Made by a program: the position numbers and the translations under genes | Notes under the pieces: generated by a model | The model's database searches: none | Seen by the model: only the letters and a program-made list of their open reading frames with translations | What the model was told of the DNA's origin: nothing | Origin: an uncultured bacterium | GTDB taxonomy: Bacteria > Verrucomicrobiota > Kiritimatiellia > CAIVKH01 | Length of the DNA stretch: 64,000 nt | Assembly (NCBI GenBank): GCA_937958885.1 | Contig: CALGMT010000010.1 | Location: 24,685-88,684, forward strand | Direction: 5' to 3' | In this document: piece after piece, positions 5,986 through 61,845 of the stretch | Numbering within the stretch: position 1 is the first letter of the stretch | Layout: every line of letters begins with the position of its first letter

Positions 5986-7068
5986 ATGGCGAAGATTGAT
6001 TTCGGCGGCGTGATCGAAGACGTGGTGACGCGCAGCGAGTTCCCGCTCGCGAAGGCGCGCAAGGCGCTCAAAGGCGAGACGATCGCCGTTCTCGGCTACG
6101 GCGTGCAAGCCCCCGCGCAGGCGCTGAACCTCAAGGACAATGGCTTCAACGTCATCGTCGGCTGCCGCGATTGGACGCGCGCCAAGAAGGACGGCTGGAA
6201 GCCCGGCAAGGATCTGTTCTCCATCGAAGAAGCCGCCGACCAGGGCACCATCCTGCTCTATCTCGTGTCCGACGCCGGCCAGCGCGCGCTGTGGCCGACC
6301 GTGAAGAAATTCCTCACTCCGGGCAAGGCGCTCGCCTTTTCCCACGGTTTCTCCATCGTGTTCAAAGAGCAGACAAAAGTCGTCCCGCCGAAGGATGTCG
6401 ACGTCATCATGGTCGCGCCGAAAGGCTCCGGCCTGAATGTGCGCCGCAATTTTCTCGCCGGCGCGGGCATCAACTCGAGTTACGCGATCTTCCAGGACGC
6501 GACCGGCCGCGCGACCGAACGCACGCTCGCGCTCGGCATCGGCATCGGCTCCGGCTACCTGTTCCCCACCACGTTCCAGCGGGAAGTGGTCAGCGATCTC
6601 ACCGGCGAACGCGGCGTGTTGATGGGCGCGCTCGCGGGGATTATGGAGGCGCAATACGACGTGCTGCGCGCCAACGGCCACTCGCCCAGCGAGGCGTTCA
6701 ACGAGACGGTCGAAGAGCTCACGCAGAGCCTCATCCGGCTTGTGGACGAGAAGGGGATGGACTGGATGTACGCAAACTGCTCGACCACCGCCCAGCGCGG
6801 CGCGCTCGACTGGAAGCCGAAGTTTAAGAAAGCCACGCTGCCTGTCTTCAAGGCGCTCTACGAATCGGTGAAAACCGGCAAAGAGTCCGCGCGCGTCCTC
6901 CGCGTGTGCAGCGGCCCCAACTACAAGGAGCTGCTCGCGAAAGAACTCAACGAGATGGGCAACTCCGAGATGTGGCGCGCCGGCGCGGCCGTACGCTCCC
7001 TCCGCCCCAAGACCGCCAAGGGCCCAACCCTCAAAGCCAAGGGCACCGGCGGCCGCACGATGGGCTGA
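5986..7068 (+). CDS. ilvC: Ketol-acid reductoisomerase (Ilv5-like)
   Basis: VLGYGVQAPAQALNLKDNGFNVIVG, FSHGFSIVF, EMWRAGAAVRSLRP; start at ATG 5986. Confidence 0.93.
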   Translation: MAKIDFGGVIEDVVTRSEFPLAKARKALKGETIAVLGYGVQAPAQALNLKDNGFNVIVGCRDWTRAKKDGWKPGKDLFSIEEAADQGTILLYLVSDAGQRALWPTVKKFLTPGKALAFSHGFSIVFKEQTKVVPPKDVDVIMVAPKGSGLNVRRNFLAGAGINSSYAIFQDATGRATERTLALGIGIGSGYLFPTTFQREVVSDLTGERGVLMGALAGIMEAQYDVLRANGHSPSEAFNETVEELTQSLIRLVDEKGMDWMYANCSTTAQRGALDWKPKFKKATLPVFKALYESVKTGKESARVLRVCSGPNYKELLAKELNEMGNSEMWRAGAAVRSLRPKTAKGPTLKAKGTGGRTMG

Positions 7069-7100: not shown

Positions 7101-7133
7101 CGCCGCGCGCCCGCAAAGCGCGCGGCGTTTTTT
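7101..7133 (+). terminator. Rho-independent terminator after ilvC
   Basis: CGCCGCGCG-cccgcaaag-CGCGCGGCG followed by TTTTTT. Confidence 0.85.
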
Positions 7134-7180
7134 ACATGCCATGGAACGTTGGAGCGGCAGCTTTTACAGGGCATGGAAAA
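7128..7180 (+). repeat. ACAG/GCATGGAA intergenic element, divergent copy 1
   Basis: TTTTTTACATGCCATGGAACG...GCTTTTACAGGGCATGGAAAA; related to copies at 25921, 44335 and 59768. Confidence 0.55.
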
Positions 7181-7228: not shown

Positions 7229-7591
7229 ATGCTGGATCCCGCCGGACAACCCCGCTGCGATGTATGCGCGTTGCCCCTCCCGCGGGGCGCTGCGAACGGC
7301 CCCTGTAGTCGGCGCTGCGCCGCGCGGCGCGATGAGTCTGCGCGCGCGCGGGCGAACGTCCCCGCCCTCGAACAGCGGATTCTCGCGGAACTTCGCTCGC
7401 TCACCGCCGGAAGCACGATGTGCCCCGGCGCCCTCGCGCAACGCGTTCTGCCGGGCGTTCGCGATCCATTGACCCTCCTGCGCCCGCTGCTGTTCGAACT
7501 GCAGGAGAAAGGGCGTGTCGCGCTTTCGCAGAAGGGCGCGGTTTTGCCGTGGTGGAAAATCCGCGGGCCTTTTCGCATCCGCGCGCGGTAA
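7229..7591 (+). CDS. DUF3253-like small protein with N-terminal Cys-rich zinc-binding segment
   Basis: CDVC...CSRRC followed by ILAELRSLTAGSTMCPGALAQRVLPG...LLRPLLFELQEKGRVALSQKG. Confidence 0.6.
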   Translation: MLDPAGQPRCDVCALPLPRGAANGPCSRRCAARRDESARARANVPALEQRILAELRSLTAGSTMCPGALAQRVLPGVRDPLTLLRPLLFELQEKGRVALSQKGAVLPWWKIRGPFRIRAR

Positions 7592-10836: not shown

Positions 10837-11020
10837 GTTGCCCAAACGGGTTATTGATTCACGATCTTTTGATTCGTTCAGAAAACAGCGGTTCGGGTCC
10901 GGGCAAAATACCCACCCCGCTTCGCGAACCCCTCCACAGAAGGAGCCGATTAGACTTGAGCGCAAAACTAGTCCCCTCCTCCGGAGGGGTGCCCGAAGGC
11001 CGAGGTGGGTTTTTGTGGGA
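10837..11020. mobile_element. Probable truncated MITE-like intergenic element (copy 1)
   Basis: Starts GTTGCCCAAAC; shares CAGAAA..GGTTCGGGTCCGG and GGAGGGGTGCCCGAAGG-CG-GGTGGGT with 23651-23853. Confidence 0.5.
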
Positions 11021-11113
11021 CGGAAAACGGAAGACGGAACGCGGGCAGCACCGTGAAACGGGGCGCCTTTCTGAAAATCTCGCGCGCTAAAGTCGTCTCG
11101 ATTTTGCAATCGG

Positions 11114-18406: not shown

Positions 18407-18525
18407 TTGTGATGGGATTTAATGGGTCGTCGAGGAGACCCCTATTTGTGATAGGATTTAATTGGGTCGTCGAGTAGACCCCTGTTTGTGATAGGCTGTA
18501 ACTGGGTCGTCGAGTAGACCCCGGC
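18407..18525. repeat. Three tandem ~40 bp direct repeats, each with an internal GGGTC/GACCC dyad
   Basis: Units TTGTGATrGGmTkTAA(y)TGGGTCGTCGAGkAGACCCC at 18407, 18446 and 18486; upstream of hemB. Confidence 0.9.
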
Positions 18526-18652: not shown

Positions 18653-18729
18653 GGGCGATTAGCTCAGTTGGTCAGAGCGCGTGCCTCACATGCACGAGGT
18701 CACTGGTTCGAGCCCAGTATCGCCCACCA
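18653..18729 (+). tRNA. tRNA-Val(CAC), CCA encoded
   Basis: GGGCGAT acceptor pairs with ATCGCCC; D-loop AGCTCAGTTGGTCAGAGC; anticodon loop CTCACAT; GGTTCGAGC T-loop; terminal ACCA. Confidence 0.97.
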
Positions 18730-18770: not shown

Positions 18771-18800
18771 AAAAGGTGTCAGTCCGTACATTTGTACAAT
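18771..18800. repeat. REP-like left end of RAYT-1 locus
   Basis: AAAAGGTGTCAGTCCGTACATTTGTACAAT, inverted relative to 19838-19866. Confidence 0.8.
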
Positions 18801-19795
18801 CTTGCGCGCAGGCGCCTGCGAGTCGCGTCGCTCGCCTGTCGAAAGGCCCGAACGGCACGACTGACATTGACTCGATTGCCCATCTCCAGTCGCTCGCAAA
18901 TCCAGCGATCCGGTATCACCGTGCGGCTTTTCACCCACCAGGCGATCGCCTGTTTTAACGGATCATTCTGCCGAAGAGCATAAACGCTGTTGACCGTTAC
19001 GTTTAGGGTCTCACAGGCCCGCTGAAGGGCTTCCTCCGCCGCGCGCTCGTCATGGCGCCGCAACCCTTCCGCGCGATACGAATCGCGGCGACGCCCGCGC
19101 ACAGCCAGATCGATTCGCTCCTGAAGTTGTTCACCAAACGCCTCGTCACCGATATACCACCCTCGCCGAACGGACCGCCACTCCTCCTCGTCCGCGTCCG
19201 TCAACTGCCCACCTGCAACCTCCGCGGCCCGCCTCTCCAGATATGCGCGATAACGCGCCCGCGCGGACACCCCCTCGTCCGCAAGTTCCAACGCCGCAAA
19301 AACGCGCTTGCGAACAAGCCAAACCGGCAACTTCCGGCCGCACACAAAAGGCACAAAGCTGCTCCATGGGTAATCTGCAAGACGCCTGCGATCACCCGCC
19401 CAAAGCCCGGCGCGCGCAGGATTCAAATGGATATAGTCGCTCACAACCCGGAAATATTCATGATCGTCAGTCGAGACCGGAATGGCTTTATATCGACCCT
19501 GAAACAAATGCCCCTTTAGGCGGTGACGCGCGTTAAACCGCTGCGTATAGGTCCCTTGAAACCACTTCATTCCGGCCACCAAGTTCGGTTCGGTCGTTTC
19601 CAGCAAGAGGTGGTAGTGATTCGGCATCAACACATATGAATGCACCAAAAATCCCGTCCTCTCGCACACCTCGCCGAGCGTTTGCAGCATGAGCCGCCGG
19701 TCCTCATCGCTGCGGAAGATAACCTCCTGCCGGTCGCCACGACACATGACGTGGTACACCGCGCCTGCATACTCGACTCGCACACTTCTCGGCAT
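18779..19795 (-). mobile_element. REP-associated tyrosine transposase (RAYT, Y1_Tnp/IS200-like) with C-terminal HTH
   Basis: YHVMCRGDRQEVIF, HSYVLMPNHYHLLLET, HLFQGRYKAI, YIHLNPARAGL. Confidence 0.93.
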
Positions 19796-19837
19796 CTGTT
19801 CATACTATCATATCGACATGACGTATCCAGTCGAGAA

Positions 19838-19906
19838 TGTACATATGTACGGACTGACCCCTTTTGTTCCTTTTGCACTGACCTCTTTTGCCTGACCCCT
19901 TTTGTT
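19838..19906. repeat. REP-like right end of RAYT-1 locus plus extra CTGACCyCTTTTG units
   Basis: ATGTACATATGTACGGACTGACCCCTTTTG TTCCTTTTGCACTGACCTCTTTTGCCTGACCCCTTTTG. Confidence 0.85.
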
Positions 19907-25074: not shown

Positions 25075-25911
25075 ATGGAAATCACCGCAGCAATGGTCAA
25101 ACAGCTCCGCGACGAAACGGGGCTCGGCATGATGGAGTGCAAGAACGCGCTCGTCGAAACCAGCGGCGACAAGCAAGCCGCCATCAAAGTGCTCCGCGAG
25201 CGAGGCCTTGCCATCGCGGGCAAAAAGGCGGAGCGCGTCGCCAAAGAGGGGCGCGTTGCCTGCGAAATCTACGACGGCGGCAAGTCCGGCGTCTTGATCG
25301 AGGTCAACTGCGAGACGGACTTCGTCGCCCGCAACGCCTCGTTTCAGGCCTTCCTCAAGGAACTGGTCCAAACCGCCAAAACTGTCGGCGATAACGCGCT
25401 CGCCGAAACCGTGAAGGATCAGGTGGCCGCCAAGATTGCCGAGATCGGCGAAAACATCATCATCCGCCGCAACGTGAAATACACCGTGCAGGGCGAAGGC
25501 ATCATCGCCGGCTACATCCACCTCGGCGAAAAAGTCGGCGTCCTCGTCGAGGTCGGTTGCGCGAAAGCCGCTTCGCTCGATGCCGACGGGTTCCGCGAAG
25601 CGGTCAAAGACGTCACCCTTCACATCGCCGCCTGCAACCCCGCCTACTTGCAGCGCGCGGATGTGCCGGCGGACGTGATCCAGGCCGAGCGCGAAATCTA
25701 TGCCAAACAAGTCGAGGGCAAGCCCGCGAACATCGTGGACAAAATCGTCGCCGGCAAGCTGGAGAAATTCTACCAGCAGAATTGCCTCGTCGAGCAGGCT
25801 TTCGTCAAGGACGCGGATCACACCGTGGCCGAGATGCTCAAGGCGCGCGGCGATGCGATCGGCGACACCCTCGCCATCCGCCGTTTTGTCCGCTACCAGG
25901 TCGGTGTCTAA
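25075..25911 (+). CDS. tsf: Translation elongation factor Ts
   Basis: VKQLRDETGLGMMECKNALVETSGD, NCETDFVARN. Confidence 0.97.
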   Translation: MEITAAMVKQLRDETGLGMMECKNALVETSGDKQAAIKVLRERGLAIAGKKAERVAKEGRVACEIYDGGKSGVLIEVNCETDFVARNASFQAFLKELVQTAKTVGDNALAETVKDQVAAKIAEIGENIIIRRNVKYTVQGEGIIAGYIHLGEKVGVLVEVGCAKAASLDADGFREAVKDVTLHIAACNPAYLQRADVPADVIQAEREIYAKQVEGKPANIVDKIVAGKLEKFYQQNCLVEQAFVKDADHTVAEMLKARGDAIGDTLAIRRFVRYQVGV

Positions 25912-25920
25912 CCGCGACAA

Positions 25921-25983
25921 TTTTCCATGCGCTGTAAATTACAGCGCATGGAAACGCGGAAAAAAGTTTTTACAGAGCATGGA
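25921..25983 (+). repeat. ACAG/GCATGGAA intergenic element, copy 2
   Basis: TTTCCATGCGCTGTAA-A-TTACAGCGCATGGAAA (16-nt perfect arms) CGCGGAAAAAAGTTTTTACAGAGCATGGA. Confidence 0.9.
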
Positions 25984-25989
25984 CGTAGC

Positions 25990-26388
25990 GTGAAGGCGAG
26001 GGGACTCACCCAGCTGGGGCGGAAGGTCGCGATCCCGAAATCCCCGGGCGCGGCGCGGATCGAAACCTTTCCGAATCGGCATCCGAACCGCGACTACACG
26101 GTGCGGTTCGAGTGTCCCGAGTTCACGTCGCTCTGTCCGATCACGGGCCAACCGGATTTCGGGCGGATCACGATCGAATACGTGCCGGACCAGCGCTGTA
26201 TCGAGAGCAAATCGCTGAAGCTCTATCTCGGCTCATTTCGGAACGAGGGGGCGTTCGCCGAGTCGATCGCGAATCGCATCTGCGACGACCTTGCCGCCGC
26301 GTGCACGCCGCGCCGGATGACCGTCATCGCGGAATTCACGCCGCGCGGCGGAATCGCGATTCGCGTCGCGGCGGAGTATGCGCGTTGA
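25990..26388 (+). CDS. queF: NADPH-dependent 7-cyano-7-deazaguanine reductase
   Basis: YTVRFECPEFTSLCPITGQPDFGRITIEYVPDQRCIESKSLKLYL; GTG 25990 preferred over ATG 25927, which lies in the repeat. Confidence 0.9.
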   Translation: MKARGLTQLGRKVAIPKSPGAARIETFPNRHPNRDYTVRFECPEFTSLCPITGQPDFGRITIEYVPDQRCIESKSLKLYLGSFRNEGAFAESIANRICDDLAAACTPRRMTVIAEFTPRGGIAIRVAAEYAR

Positions 26389-30399: not shown

Positions 30400-30410
30400 T
30401 GAGGAGCATG

Positions 30411-30493
30411 AACGGAAAACGGAAGACGGAAGACGGAATGTGTTCGACGCGGCCTGATGCGCTCGTTCCGTTTTCCGTTTTCCGTCTTCCGTC
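30411..30493. repeat. Inverted pair of (ACGGAAAACGGAAG)-type spacer repeats
   Basis: AACGGAAAACGGAAGACGGAAGACGGAA ... TTCCGTTTTCCGTTTTCCGTCTTCCGT. Confidence 0.9.
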
Positions 30494-33764: not shown

Positions 33765-33796
33765 CCCCAAAGGGGTCAGACGCTGAATTTTCTCGT
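33765..33796. repeat. Solo REP-like copy matching RAYT-2 ends
   Basis: CCCCAAAGGGGTCAGACGCTGAATTTTCTCGT; same core as 52155-52183 and rc of 53137-53165. Confidence 0.9.
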
Positions 33797-42929: not shown

Positions 42930-44312
42930 ATGAGCCTGTTGATCCGGAACGGCGAGATCGTCACCGCGGATGCGCATTACAAGGCGGACATCTACTGCGC
43001 GGACGAACAGATCACCTGCATCGGTCCGAACCTCGACGTGCCCAAGGGCACGACCGTCATCGACGCCAAGGGCAAATACGTGTTCCCCGGCTTCATCGAC
43101 CCGCACGTCCACATCTACTTGCCCTTCATGGGCACCTACGCAAAAGACACCTACGAAACCGCCGGCAAGGCCGCGCTCGCCGGCGGCACTACCACACTGA
43201 TCGAAATGTGCTGTCCTGCGCGCAGCGATGGACTGCTCAAATCCTTCGAACTCTGGCGCAGCAAGGCCGAGGGCTTGAGCCCGTGCGACTTCACGTTCCA
43301 CATGGGCGTTTCGCGATTCGACGAACAAGCCGAACGCGAGCTGCGCGAAATCGTCAAGTCCGGCATCTCCAGCTTTAAAATCTTCCTCGCCTACAAAGGC
43401 GCGTTCGGCGTCACGGATTACGAGCTGTACCACACGCTGCGCCTCGCGAAGGAACTCGGCGTGATCGTCACCGCGCACTGCGAAAACGCCGACCTTGTCG
43501 CCGAGCTGCAAAAGAAACTGCTCGCCGCGCGCAAGACGGGCACAAAATGGCACTACTGGAGCCGCCCGCCGCTCGTCGAGGCCGAGGGCGTGCACCACCT
43601 CGCCACCTTCGCGGAAATGCACGACACCCACGTCTATTGCGTCCACACCAGTTGCGCCGAGGCGCTCCGCGCGGCAATCCGCGCGCGCGAACGCGGTGTG
43701 AAGATTTGGGTCGAGACGTTGATTCAATATCTCACCCTCGACATGAGCCACGCCGAATTGCCGAAATTTGAAGGCGCGAAGTACGTCATGTCGCCCCCGC
43801 TCCGCCACAAATCCAACCAGGCCGTCTTCTGGAACGCCCTCGCGCAGGACCTCGTCAGCACCGTCGCCACCGACCACGCGCCGTTCGACTTCAAGGGACA
43901 AAAAGACATGGGCCGCGCGGACTTTACGAAAATCCCGAACGGCATCCCGTCGCTCGAAGACCGCGTCACCGTGCTCTGGACGCACGGCGTCGCGACCGGC
44001 CGCCTCTCGCTGAACCGCTTCGTGGAGGTCGGCAGCACACAGGCCGCCAAACTCTTCGGCCTGTTCCCGCGCAAGGGCGCGATCGCCGTCGGCAGCGACG
44101 CCGACCTCGTCATTTGGGACCCGAAATACCGCGGCGTCATCTCCGCAAAAAAACAATACATGAATGTGGACTACAACCCATTCGAGGGCTGGGAAATCAC
44201 CGGCCGCCCCTCCGTCGTCGCGGTGCGCGGACAGATCATGGTCAAGAACGGCAAATTCGTCGGCCGCCTCGGCCACGGCCGCTTCCTTGCGCGCGAGCCG
44301 AACCATTTCTAA
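42930..44312 (+). CDS. Dihydropyrimidinase/hydantoinase-family amidohydrolase
   Basis: GKYVFPGFIDPHVHIYLPFMGTYAKDTYETAGKAALAGGTTT; SSFKIFLAYKG; VATDHAPF. Confidence 0.92.
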   Translation: MSLLIRNGEIVTADAHYKADIYCADEQITCIGPNLDVPKGTTVIDAKGKYVFPGFIDPHVHIYLPFMGTYAKDTYETAGKAALAGGTTTLIEMCCPARSDGLLKSFELWRSKAEGLSPCDFTFHMGVSRFDEQAERELREIVKSGISSFKIFLAYKGAFGVTDYELYHTLRLAKELGVIVTAHCENADLVAELQKKLLAARKTGTKWHYWSRPPLVEAEGVHHLATFAEMHDTHVYCVHTSCAEALRAAIRARERGVKIWVETLIQYLTLDMSHAELPKFEGAKYVMSPPLRHKSNQAVFWNALAQDLVSTVATDHAPFDFKGQKDMGRADFTKIPNGIPSLEDRVTVLWTHGVATGRLSLNRFVEVGSTQAAKLFGLFPRKGAIAVGSDADLVIWDPKYRGVISAKKQYMNVDYNPFEGWEITGRPSVVAVRGQIMVKNGKFVGRLGHGRFLAREPNHF

Positions 44313-44334: not shown

Positions 44335-44399
44335 TTTTTACAGACCCTGTAAATTACATAGCATGGAACCCGCAAAAAAAGTTTTTACAGAGCATGGAA
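44335..44399 (+). repeat. ACAG/GCATGGAA intergenic element, copy 3
   Basis: TTTTTACAGACCCTGTAAATTACATAGCATGGAACCCGCAAAAAAAGTTTTTACAGAGCATGGAA. Confidence 0.9.
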
Positions 44400-44427: not shown

Positions 44428-45303
44428 ATGACGCCCGCCGAAAAATTCCGCGCCGCGCTCGAGGCCGAGCGCCCGCTGCAGATCGCGGGCGCGATCAACG
44501 CCTATGCGGCGAAACTCGCCGAACGCGCCGGATTCCGCGCGCTCTACGTCTCCGGCGCGGGCGTCGCCAACGCGAGCTTCGGCCTGCCGGACCTCGGCTT
44601 CACCACGCGCGAACAGGTTGCCGAGGACGTGCGCCGCATCGCTGGCGCGACGGCGCTCCCGTTGCTGGTGGATGTGGACACCGGCTGGGACGATCCCGCA
44701 GCGGCGGCGCGCGTGATGGCCGACGCCGGTGCGGCGGTGTTGCAGATCGAAGATCAGGTGGATCTCAAGCGTTGCGGGCACCGTCCGAACAAGCAATTGG
44801 TTCCGACGGACGAGATGCGCGCGCGGATCCGCGCGATGGTCTCCGCGCGCCCCGGCGCCGAGGTGCTGATCATGGCCCGAACCGACGCGGCAACGGTAGA
44901 AGGCCTCGACGCCGCGATCGCGCGGGCGCGGGCCTACGTGGAGGCGGGCGCTGACTATATTTTTGCCGAGGCGCTGCATGCGCTCAACGACTATCGCGCG
45001 TTTACCTCCGCGGTCCGCGCGCCGGTGCTCGCGAACATCACCGAATTCGGCAAGACGCCGCTGCTGACAACGGCGGAACTCGTGTCCGCGGGCGTGCGCA
45101 TGGCGCTGTATCCGCTGTCCGCGTTCCGCGCGATGAGCGCGGCCGCGGAAAAAGTGTACGGGGCGATTCGAAAAGAGGGGACGCAAAAAAGCGTCACGGG
45201 TATCATGCAAACGCGGGAAGAGTTGTACGCCGTGCTCGATTACCACCGCTACGAGCGGGAGGCCGATGCGCGGCTTCAAGCCAGTCAAGGAGGAACGCCA
45301 TGA
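44428..45303 (+). CDS. prpB: Methylisocitrate lyase
   Basis: LLVDVDTGWDDPAAAARVMADAGAAVLQIEDQVDLKRCGHR; AALTGxx-type fold; ATG 44428. Confidence 0.93.
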   Translation: MTPAEKFRAALEAERPLQIAGAINAYAAKLAERAGFRALYVSGAGVANASFGLPDLGFTTREQVAEDVRRIAGATALPLLVDVDTGWDDPAAAARVMADAGAAVLQIEDQVDLKRCGHRPNKQLVPTDEMRARIRAMVSARPGAEVLIMARTDAATVEGLDAAIARARAYVEAGADYIFAEALHALNDYRAFTSAVRAPVLANITEFGKTPLLTTAELVSAGVRMALYPLSAFRAMSAAAEKVYGAIRKEGTQKSVTGIMQTREELYAVLDYHRYEREADARLQASQGGTP

Positions 45304-52223: not shown

Positions 52224-53156
52224 ATGCCAAGACCTATACGAATCGAGTTTCCTGGGGCTATTTACCACATCATCAGCCGGGGAAATTATCGAAAGCCTCT
52301 GTTTTCCATGCCGGGGAGTGGACGGGCTTTTGAGCAGACGCTTTTCGAAGTGGCAGAGCGCTCCTGCTGGCGCATCTATGCGTATGTCGTGATGAGCAAT
52401 CACTACCACGTCGCGCTACAAACACCCGAAGCAAATCTGGTTCAGGGGATGAAATGGCTGCAAGGAACATTCGCGACCCGCTTTAATCATTTCTATAAAG
52501 AGCAGGGTCATGTTTTCCAGGGCCGGTATAAATCCATTTTGGTGGAAGAGGGGAGACCGCTTCTTGGTCTCATCAACTATATTCATCTCAATCCCGTACG
52601 TGCGGGCTTATGCACGATTAAGAGTTTGCGCGAGTACGAGCTGTCCAGCTACTGGTATTATTGGCAACGACATCGGCCAGCGTGTTTGGATCGCGACGCG
52701 ATACTAGCGCTTGCAGAATTGCCAAATTCAACCCACGGCATGCAATCGTATGAAGCATTGCTGGCATCGGTCGATGAGGCGAACCCGCGGAAACGAACAG
52801 AGCTCCACCGCATCTATGCACGCGGATGGTTTCTCGGTTCGCATGATGCAAAGCGTCGAGTGGCAAATGAACTGCTGAAATCAAATCCTCGGGAGGAATG
52901 GAAGGGTCGCGCGTATGCGGATATGTATGAGGAAAAATGGGATCGCTATGTGCGGGAGAAATTGAGAGAGATTCATAAATCAGAAGCAGATCTGTTGCGC
53001 GAAGCAAAGGGAGCGAAGTGGAAGGTTAAAATTGCCCGTGCGCTACGCGGGCAATTCAACGCAAGTAATCCATGGATTGCCCGACGTCTCCATATGGGCC
53101 ATCCCACTCGCGTAAGCATGGCCGTCGCGGGCGCGACGAGAAAATTCAGCGCCTGA
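52224..53156 (+). mobile_element. REP-associated tyrosine transposase (RAYT), second subfamily
   Basis: MPRPIRIEFPGAIYHIISRGNYRKPLF, AYVVMSNHYHVALQTPEANLVQGMKWLQGTFATRFN, HVFQGRYKSILVE, YIHLNPVRAGL. Confidence 0.95.
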
Positions 53157-53165
53157 CCCCTTTAT
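53137..53165. repeat. REP-like right end of RAYT-2 locus
   Basis: ACGAGAAAATTCAGCGCCTGACCCCTTTA. Confidence 0.9.
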
Positions 53166-59015: not shown

Positions 59016-59735
59016 ATGAGCAAACCGTGTTTTGTGAAATCGACCATCGGCCGCAAAGTGATTGCTGCGATCTCCGGAATCGCGCTGATGCTGTTCATCG
59101 TCGTGCACCTCGGCGGTAATCTTACGATGCTGGTCCCGGACAACGGTGCAACGTTCAACGCCTACGCGCATAAGCTTCACTCGCTCGGCCCGCTCTTGTG
59201 GGTCGCGCGCGCGGGCCTGCTGATCTTCTTCCTCGGCCACGTCATCACCGCGATCGGCGTCCGCCTCGATGAAAAACGCGCGCGGCCGGTCGGCTACGCC
59301 ATCACGGCCAGCAAGGGCGGACCGAGCAAGCAGACGTGGTCCTCGCGCTCGATGCTGATCACGGGGCTGATTATCCTGCTATTCGTGCCGTTCCACATCT
59401 GGATGTTCACGCTCAACCAGGGCGCGGATCACGCGCGAATCGTCCAGCACGGCGTGGAAATGAAAGATGTGTATCTCTCCGTGGTCCGCGGCTTCAGCAA
59501 CCCCGTCAAGGCCTGGGCCTACGTCGCAGTGATGGCGCTGCTCGGCTTTCACTTGCGCCACGGGTTCTGGAGCGCGTTCCAATCGCTCGGCGCATTGAGT
59601 CCCAAATGCGCGCCCGTCGCCTACACCGCGGGGCTGATCTTCGCGCTGCTGATGGCGGTGGGATTCCTCATCCTGCCGCTGTACATCCTCTATTTCGGAC
59701 CGGACCCCGAGACGCTGCGCGTCGCGATGAACTAA
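59016..59735 (+). CDS. sdhC: Succinate dehydrogenase/fumarate reductase cytochrome b subunit
   Basis: STIGRKVIAAISGIALMLFIVVHLGGNL...GFHLRHGFWSAFQSLG. Confidence 0.92.
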   Translation: MSKPCFVKSTIGRKVIAAISGIALMLFIVVHLGGNLTMLVPDNGATFNAYAHKLHSLGPLLWVARAGLLIFFLGHVITAIGVRLDEKRARPVGYAITASKGGPSKQTWSSRSMLITGLIILLFVPFHIWMFTLNQGADHARIVQHGVEMKDVYLSVVRGFSNPVKAWAYVAVMALLGFHLRHGFWSAFQSLGALSPKCAPVAYTAGLIFALLMAVGFLILPLYILYFGPDPETLRVAMN

Positions 59736-59736
59736 G

Positions 59737-59766
59737 AGACGGAAGAAGGAAGACGGAAAACGGAAA
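59737..59766. repeat. Purine-rich ACGGAAGACGGAAAACGGAA spacer
   Basis: GACGGAAGAAGGAAGACGGAAAACGGAAAA. Confidence 0.85.
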
Positions 59767-59767
59767 A

Positions 59768-59832
59768 TTTTACAGAGTCTGTAAATTACAGAGCATGGAA
59801 GCCGCGAAAAAAGTTTTTACAGAGCATGGAAA
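59768..59832 (+). repeat. ACAG/GCATGGAA intergenic element, copy 4
   Basis: TTTTACAGAGTCTGTAAATTACAGAGCATGGAAGCCGCGAAAAAAGTTTTTACAGAGCATGGAAA. Confidence 0.92.
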
Positions 59833-59870: not shown

Positions 59871-61811
59871 ATGATCAAAGTCGCCGAAGAACCGATCCTA
59901 AACGCCAACATTCCGGACGGGCCGATCGAGACCAAGTGGAAAACCCACAAGGCCAATATCAAACTCGTCAGCCCGGCGAACAAACGGAAATACACCGTGA
60001 TCGTCGTCGGCACCGGCCTCGCAGGCGGTTCGGCGGCGGCGTCGCTCGGGGAGCTGGGCTACAACGTGCTGAATTTCTGCATCCAGGACACGCCGCGCCG
60101 CGCGCACAGCGTCGCCGCGCAGGGCGGCATCAACGCGGCGAAGAACTATCAGAACGACGGCGACAGCGTGTGGCGGCTGTTTTACGACACAGTGAAGGGC
60201 GGCGACTTCCGCGCGCGCGAGGCGAATGTGTACCGGCTCGCGGAGATGTCCGCGAACATCATCGACCAATGCGCCGCGCAAGGCGTGCCGTTCGCGCGCG
60301 AATACGGCGGCACGCTGGCGAACCGCTCGTTCGGCGGCGCGCAGGTCTCGCGCACGTTTTACGCGCGCGGACAGACGGGCCAGCAACTCTTGCTCGGCTG
60401 CTACAGCTCGCTGATGCGGCAGGTGGATGCGGGCCGTGTGAAACTCTTTCCGCGCCGCGAGATGCTCGATCTTGTCGTCGTGGATGGCCGCGCGCGCGGG
60501 ATCGTTTGCCGCAACCTTGTGACCGGCGCGATCGAGTCGTATGCGGCGGACGCGGTGTTGCTGGCAACGGGCGGCTATTCGACCGTCTTTTTCCTTTCCA
60601 CCAACGCGGTGAACTGCAACGTGACCGCCGCCTGGCGGTGCCACAAGCGCGGCGCGTTTTTCGCGAATCCGTGCTATACGCAGATTCATCCGACGTGCAT
60701 CCCGCTCGCCGGCGCGTCGCAGTCCAAGCTGACGCTGATGAGCGAGTCGCTCCGCAACGACGGCCGCGTCTGGGTGCCGAAGAACAAAGGCGACAAGCGT
60801 CCGCCGAGCCAGATTCCCGAAGACGAGCGCGACTATTTCCTCGAGCGATTGTATCCGGCGTTCGGCAACCTCGTCCCGCGCGACATCGCGTCGCGCGCGG
60901 CCAAGCGCATGTGCGACACCGGCTACGGCGTCGGAAACACCGGCTATGCGGTGTACCTCGATTTCAGCGACGCGATTCAGCGGCTGGGTCGCGACGTCGT
61001 GCGCGAGCGATACGGCAATTTGTTCGACATGTATCACGAGATCACGAACGAATCGCCCTACGAGACGCCGATGCGCATCTATCCCGCGCCGCACTACACG
61101 ATGGGCGGGCTGTGGGTGGATTACAACCTCATGAGCACGATCCCCGGCCTCCACGTCCTCGGCGAGGCGAACTTCTCCGATCACGGCGCGAACCGGCTCG
61201 GCGCGAGCGCGCTGATGCAGGGCCTCGCGGACGGGTATTTCGTGATCCCTTACACGCTCGGCCACTACCTCGCCGACAGCGGCGTGCTGAAGAACAAAGT
61301 CACAACCGACCATCCCGCCTTCAAAGAGGCCGCCGCGGCCGCCGCGGAGCAGACCAAGCGACTCGTCGGCGCGCGCGGCAAGAAGACCGTGCGGGAGTTC
61401 CACTGGGAACTCGGCCGCATCATGTGGGATCACGTCGGCATGTCGCGCAACGCGAAAGGCCTCGAGGGCGCGATTCGGGACATCCGCGCGCTGCGCGAGG
61501 ATTTCTGGAAGAACGTCAGCGTCGGCGGCTCCGATGGGGACTTCAACAAAAACCTCGAATTCGCCGGGCGCGTCGCGGATTTCATGGAACTTGGCGAGTT
61601 GATGGCGATCGACGCGCTGCACCGCAACGAATCGTGCGGCGGCCATTTCCGCGAGGAATATCAGACGCCGGAAGGCGAGGCGATGCGGGATGATAAGAAT
61701 TTCTGCTACGTCGGCGCGTGGCAATGGTCCGGCAACGCCTCCGAACCGGTCCTGCACAAAGAGGACCTTGAGTTCGACTACGTGCACCTCGCGCAGCGCA
61801 GTTACAAGTGA
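59871..61811 (+). CDS. sdhA: Succinate dehydrogenase/fumarate reductase flavoprotein subunit
   Basis: [66 protein letters not shown]. Confidence 0.96.
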
Positions 61812-61845
61812 ACGGAAAACGGAAGACGGAAAACGGAAGAAGCGG
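61811..61845. repeat. Purine-rich ACGGAAAACGGAAG spacer between sdhA and sdhB
   Basis: AACGGAAAACGGAAGACGGAAAACGGAAGAAGCGG. Confidence 0.9.

Follow-up and report, generated by a model that had tools for sequence, protein, structure and literature searches.

Dispersed arrays of regularly spaced dyad sites in genomes assigned to Kiritimatiellia, with a possible role in protein binding

Introduction

The REP and BIME sequences of enterobacteria and the RAYT-driven REPINs are short palindromic units that form mosaic arrays and occur in many intergenic copies. BOX of the pneumococcus and the Rickettsia palindromic elements are built from modules whose inner units vary in number, and include in-frame insertions in genes. 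Short palindromic protein sites that lie across the chromosome without forming a regulatory class are exemplified by matS and MatP, the Noc-binding sites and Noc, and parS and ParB. Plasmid iterons, like other helically spaced repeat arrays, place their repeats about two helix turns apart, an arrangement that serves cooperative binding.

The present work describes arrays of short dyad sites in a 64-kb stretch of DNA from an uncultured bacterium (hereafter the window), in the genome to which it belongs (G000; 2.58 Mb, 87 contigs) and in related genomes. Like REP, BIME and REPIN sequences, these Kiritimatiellia arrays consist of short palindromic units dispersed in large numbers between genes; unlike REPs and REPINs, their unit is a helically spaced dyad site with no long hairpin, and the hairpin is broken in G000. 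They share with BOX and the Rickettsia elements a modular build and an occasional in-frame position in genes, but their sequence is unrelated, their spacing is conserved although the spacers are random, and their positions are kept across genera. If the best reading proposed below holds, they would work like matS, Noc-binding or parS sites, from which they differ by far more copies, arrangement in 22/31-bp arrays, another sequence, a lineage-specific core and, in one genome (G081), by apparently having no origin or terminus domain. In contrast to plasmid iterons, the arrays are chromosome-wide and typically contain 2-7 sites. No description of the arrays was found in the open literature searched, the scope of which did not extend to the Kiritimatiella glycovorans genome paper (10.1038/ismej.2016.84), where an earlier mention is possible. 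The class-wide core sequences had no match in the open literature searched, and searches for ACAGAGCATGG/CCATGCTCTGT returned only unrelated papers, as judged by title.

Results

Four copies of the array in the window

All four copies of a dispersed repeat reported in the initial annotation were recovered in the window at the coordinates given there, and the pattern ACAGAGCATGGAA, with up to two mismatches, matched the window nine times against 0.92 matches expected, a number reached by 0 of 100 shuffles. Copy 1 lies between the gene for ketol-acid reductoisomerase (5986-7068) and an ORF with a putative DUF3253 assignment (7229-7591); it comprises, on the plus strand, the site TTTACATGCCATGGAA (7131..7146), with two mismatches to the genome consensus, and the site TTTACAGGGCATGGAA (7163..7178), which starts 32 bp after the first. 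Copy 2, between tsf (25093-25911) and queF (25990-26388), has a head-to-head site on the minus strand, TTTCCATGCGCTGTAAA, the reverse complement of TTTACAGCGCATGGAAA (25922..25938), followed on the plus strand by ATTACAGCGCATGGAAA (25938..25954) and, 31 bp after it, TTTACAGAGCATGGAC (25969..25984). Copy 3 occupies the gap between an amidohydrolase gene (42930-44312) and a prpB-like gene of the PEP mutase family (44428-45303), and its plus-strand sites are the symmetric TTTACA-GACCC-TGTAAA (44337..44353), ATTACATAGCATGGAA (44353..44368) and, 31 bp further, TTTACAGAGCATGGAA (44384..44399). The same arrangement on the plus strand is found in copy 4, between an sdhC-like gene (59016-59735) and sdhA (59871-61811), with the symmetric TTTACA-GAGTC-TGTAAA (59769..59785), ATTACAGAGCATGGAA (59785..59800) and, again at 31 bp, TTTACAGAGCATGGAA (59816..59831).

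Copies 2-4 represent a sub-type that carries one extra site 16 bp upstream, an offset of about 1.5 helix turns. The palindrome noted earlier in copy 2 is indeed perfect, but it results from this extra site, two head-to-head copies of one site being offset by 16 bp. The second half-site had been placed about 22 nt downstream; the actual gap is 15 bp, and a site of 16-17 bp recurs every 31 bp (32 bp in copy 1). In the window, the copies show a derived form of a palindromic site family, TTTCCA-N5-TGGAAA. At gathering scores, the only Rfam match of the window is one tRNA, the matches of copy 2 being weak and far below the cut-off. The tandem window version of the array had no match in the named genome collection.

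A dispersed family in the genome of the window

Pattern searches of the whole genome and of its relatives revealed a large dispersed family. The 16-mer TTTACAGNGCATGGAA has 117 exact matches in G000, a density of about 45 copies per Mb, and its reversed control has none. Most of the sites sit in arrays of two or three at 31-bp spacing; among the 60 arrays viewed in context, 35 had two sites, 22 had three, two had four and one had a single site. Alignment of the two-site arrays delineates a sharply bounded element of some 60 bp, AACAAATTT-TTTACAGAGCATGGAA-GTTTTAAAAAAAGTT-TTTACAGAGCATGGAA-CTTTT, the spacers of which are partly conserved among the copies. The ends of this element, AACAAATTT... 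and ...CTTTT, are not the terminal inverted repeats of a MITE. The G000 sites have GAGCA as their middle five bases, and one arm has changed from TTTCCA to TTTACA, a change that is uncompensated in more than 100 copies.

Site architecture, spacing and folding

Among neighbouring sites at the loci of the class, 32 pairs are spaced at 20-22 bp and 243 at 29-32 bp, with none at 23-28 or 33-41 bp; every locus had been fetched for one 31-bp pair, and the remaining pairs are unselected. The two spacings, of about 22 and 31 bp, are close to two and three helix turns, and the half-sites TTTCCA and TGGAAA (TTTACA and TGGAAA in the species of G000) are 11 bp apart, which corresponds to one turn. The spacers of 116 distinct 31-bp pairs from the class mostly hold about 0.1-0.3 bit of information per position, and the T and A just outside every site are conserved, the arm bases themselves being fixed by the search. 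Across the class, the spacer keeps its length and not its sequence, a pattern more in keeping with a protein bound to a single helical face than with RNA structure. The z-scores of RNA folding relative to shuffles are -3.0 for copy 1, -5.1 for copy 2, 0.2 for copy 3, -1.2 for copy 4 and 0.6 for a typical G000 element (L050), and part of a long array (L170) folds well as RNA, with a z-score of -4.7. At core positions 8 and 10, 47% of the class sites have complementary bases, against 35% by chance. The suggestion that the element is selected as a structure is not borne out, since copies 3 and 4 and L050 fold no better than shuffles and the arm change is left without compensation. The conserved hairpin of REPINs is likewise not seen, typical G000 copies folding like shuffles.

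Distribution across the class

The strict general pattern, defined as TTTCCA-N5-TGGAA twice with a 31-bp period, is present in 53 of 146 relatives, and its reversed control in none. With a looser pattern, pairs of sites about 31 bp apart were detected in 41 of the 114 class genomes and in 1 of the 224 from the rest of the phylum (a split counted from the results table), the control giving none in all 338 genomes. The class is taken to be Kiritimatiellia from the labels of the pattern-bearing records, which are named Kiritimatiellae, Kiritimatiellales, 'Lentisphaerae', 'Verrucomicrobia', 'Spartobacteria' or 'uncultured bacterium', with one MAG labelled Firmicutes. Copy number differs strongly among related genomes, the largest count with the looser pattern being 746 pairs (G013). 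In the genus of G000, sampling revealed 31-32-bp arrays in G001, where the looser pattern gives 92 pairs, and array-like pairs in G002; since these arrays appeared only on sampling and with the looser pattern, counts of the strict 31-bp pattern are lower bounds. Several families of the class are without arrays, so the system is dispensable. The five core bases differ by lineage, for example ATGAT, AGGCT, CACAA and CGGTA, and G003, of another genus in the same family as G000, has TTTCCATnnnATGGAA sites with an equal 31-bp period. In G081, 45 arrays are spread over the entire chromosome and are present near both skew switches, which speaks against an exclusive origin or terminus domain; they are mildly clustered, in that 18 of them have another array within 10 kb where 9.3 were expected (p 0.013).

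The arrays do not follow the RAYT transposases, since no PF01797 (Y1_Tnp) match is present in the array-bearing drafts G050 (99 pairs), G021 (28 strict-pattern matches) and G039 (18 pairs), and the draft G013, with its 746 pairs, has two. The initial annotation considered the element a dispersed operator or mobile repeat and could name no described family for it, an assessment that holds within its limits; the copies have neither an Rfam match nor a tie to RAYT transposases. A mainly phage-borne origin was rejected: in the viral collection, the general pattern occurs in seven stretches and the window version in none. Uptake sequences (DUS/USS) are very dense single sites, many of them in coding DNA; the present sites are in arrays, mostly in gene gaps. 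The sole sampled genome outside the class with the loose pair pattern, G180 of another class of the phylum, has three pairs, which may reflect chance, contamination or transfer.

Conserved positions with a rewritten sequence

Thirteen arrays occupy the same gene gap in G000 and G003. In 12 of these gaps the flanking genes are mostly 65-90% identical; the thirteenth array lies upstream of sdhA, and its upstream gene differs in G003. Chance agreement was estimated at 1-3 gaps (Poisson p about 1e-5 or lower), an approximate figure resting on the assumptions that each genome has about 2,200 genes and that the arrays are placed independently. The site TTTACAGAGCATGGAA accounts for 103 of 156 G000 sites and for 9 of 172 G003 sites. 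The common gaps, taken together with the differing core, imply that the set of arrays is old and in place, and that its sequence was rewritten in one lineage. This rewriting could have proceeded by a changed protein specificity, by gene conversion or by re-insertion at the old sites.

Gene context

Gene context was derived from 60-77 fetched arrays with a purpose-written, simple gene caller rather than from curated annotation. The gaps that hold arrays in G000 are co-directional in 41 cases, convergent in seven and divergent in seven. The single orientation reported for the four window copies holds for these but not genome-wide, where orientation is random, 22 of the 41 arrays in co-directional gaps pointing with the genes. 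In G000, a median of 20 bp separates an array from the 3' end of the gene upstream, compared with a median of 42 bp to the start of the following gene (Wilcoxon p 0.002), and the distance from array to start is not fixed. No significant 3' bias (p 0.43) was present in the 133 arrays taken from named genomes, where the types of gap resemble the background. The neighbours are unrelated housekeeping genes, such as ruvB, alr, panB, hisB/hisH, rfbA/rfbC, an esterase gene, tsf/queF and sdhC/sdhA, and several arrays split operons. Arrays occupy the sdhC-sdhA, hisB-hisH and rfbA-rfbC gaps, and the region upstream of ruvB. No recurrent neighbour gene able to encode a regulator was found in the array contexts of the named genomes, where clusters of neighbours do not exceed five.

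Some arrays are within genes. A six-site array lies in frame in an open nucleotidyltransferase gene (L139:303-1091), the product of which aligns with 7d72_K over query residues 2-104 and 161-252 (residues 11-118 and 132-224 of the homologue); the array region thus comprises 56 residues against 13 in the homologue, about 43 extra relative to solved homologues. At another locus (L063), two sites form an array that is read in frame as a segment of an iron alcohol dehydrogenase. By-eye translation of three pairs of loci from G000 and G003 (L050/L238, L051/L240 and L057/L038) apparently places the ATG of genes for putative exported proteins inside the last site of the array.

Discussion

From the sites, their spacing, their dispersal, their clade distribution, their conserved positions and their lineage-specific core, we infer a binding protein, with cooperative binding and an architectural role. 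We propose that the arrays are helically phased binding arrays of a putative, probably architectural, DNA-binding protein, a reading to which we give about an even chance. A putative dimeric protein would dock on each site, with its two half-sites one helix turn apart, and steps of 31 bp (about three turns) or 22 bp (about two turns) would keep the half-sites on one face of the helix, where cooperative occupancy may be possible. As the arrays are spread over the chromosome in gaps of every kind, their job is most likely to be at the level of the chromosome, in nucleoid architecture or marking, rather than in the control of particular genes. The arrays would stay at their gaps as the favoured site sequence drifts and becomes homogenised in each lineage, presumably tracking the specificity of the protein. 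It can be hypothesised, somewhat more tentatively, that they constitute a clade-specific, chromosome-wide system of Kiritimatiellia, with tens to hundreds of phased dyad arrays whose gaps are fixed and whose recognition sequence is rewritten per lineage together with its putative protein. Protein-binding arrays are supported by the two spacing classes, the kept spacer length, the occurrence in 41 of 114 class genomes against 1 of 224 others, the 117 sites, the 13 common gaps, the absence of a preference for orientation or gene type and the chromosome-wide spread in G081. Several features argue against them: the absence of a recurrent neighbour gene that would point to a protein, the in-frame copies in L139 and L063, which fit the insertion of a mobile element, the partly conserved G000 spacers expected of a copied repeat, the 16-bp offset of the window sub-type and the families without arrays. 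Moreover, with just two basic spacings, the apparent helical phasing might arise by chance from the lengths of two units.

The main rival is a non-autonomous selfish repeat, comparable to MITE, BOX or Rickettsia palindromic elements, that copies itself into gaps and occasionally into genes, with the sites as the target of the moving enzyme and no function for the host. The two-site G000 copies share a sharp-ended element, spacer included, and the arrays lie between operon genes in random orientation and vary strongly in copy number between related genomes, as such a repeat might be expected to do. The in-frame arrays in the nucleotidyltransferase and the iron alcohol dehydrogenase, together with the gene starts inside last sites, keep this explanation alive. 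We consider it possible but rather unlikely, since 13 arrays are at common gaps across genera where chance would give 1-3, class spacers are nearly random in sequence and fixed in length, the aligned element is without inverted ends, and RAYT transposases do not track the arrays. Operators of a global transcription regulator that acts on the adjacent genes would account for the dyad sites, the 11-bp spacing of half-sites and the tandem arrangement, and also for the array kept upstream of sdhA in G003 despite a different upstream gene. Such operators nevertheless appear improbable: the neighbours have no common function, the arrays are also found within operons, between convergent genes and in reading frames, not as promoter sites of a linked regulon, their distance to starts is not fixed, and in G000 they are nearer to 3' ends than to starts. 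The operator suggested in the initial annotation is strengthened in its protein-binding half, by the helical spacing and the conserved positions, whereas a gene-specific operator is unlikely given the unrelated neighbours and the arrays inside operons.

An RNA-level element at gene ends, whether a terminator, an mRNA stabiliser or a REP-like hairpin, would be in keeping with the good folding of copy 2 and of part of L170, and with the median of 20 bp that separates G000 arrays from the upstream gene. This explanation is highly improbable, as copies 3 and 4 and the typical element fold no better than shuffles, the change in one arm breaks a pair, core complementarity is 47% against 35% by chance, helical spacing is meaningless for RNA hairpins, the named genomes show no significant 3' bias, and terminators within sdhC-sdhA or hisB-hisH would be odd.

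The arrays are a genome-wide feature of a large, mostly uncultured class, for which no description was found in the literature searched. If they are bound by a protein, they point to a new chromosome-binding protein and offer a natural experiment in which about a hundred sites change together as the specificity of the protein changes. Even as a mobile repeat, they would be of an unusual type, defined by the spacing of sites and not by a hairpin.

Other repeats near the arrays

The window contains further repeats. In the region 18771-19865, a Y1 (IS200/RAYT-like) transposase gene (18779-19747, minus strand) lies between 32-nt inverted repeats with GTGTCAGTCCGTACA/TGTACGGACTGACCCC ends, which are 91% complementary and form a repeat family separate from the arrays; a second Y1 match, its position converted from contig numbering, is located at about 52260-52586. 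The 28-nt sequence AAAGGGGTCAGACGCTGAATTTTCTCGT has inverted copies at 33769-33796 and 53136-53163, 19 kb apart and 96% complementary, and is possibly a further Y1-linked repeat. Just upstream of the tRNA at 18653-18726, a 40-nt tandem duplication (TTTAATGGGTCGTCGAGGAGACCCC...; 18418-18497) is 88% identical. Purine-rich repeats of the ACGGAAAACGGAAGACGGAA type are intergenic and occur on both strands (11017-11046, 30409-30438, 59736-59765 and 61809-61838), one of them directly 5' of array copy 4. In G001, a palindrome unrelated to the arrays, GCGGTTTGAGCCAAACCGC, is clustered at L319:9500-14120, with copies about 72 bp apart.
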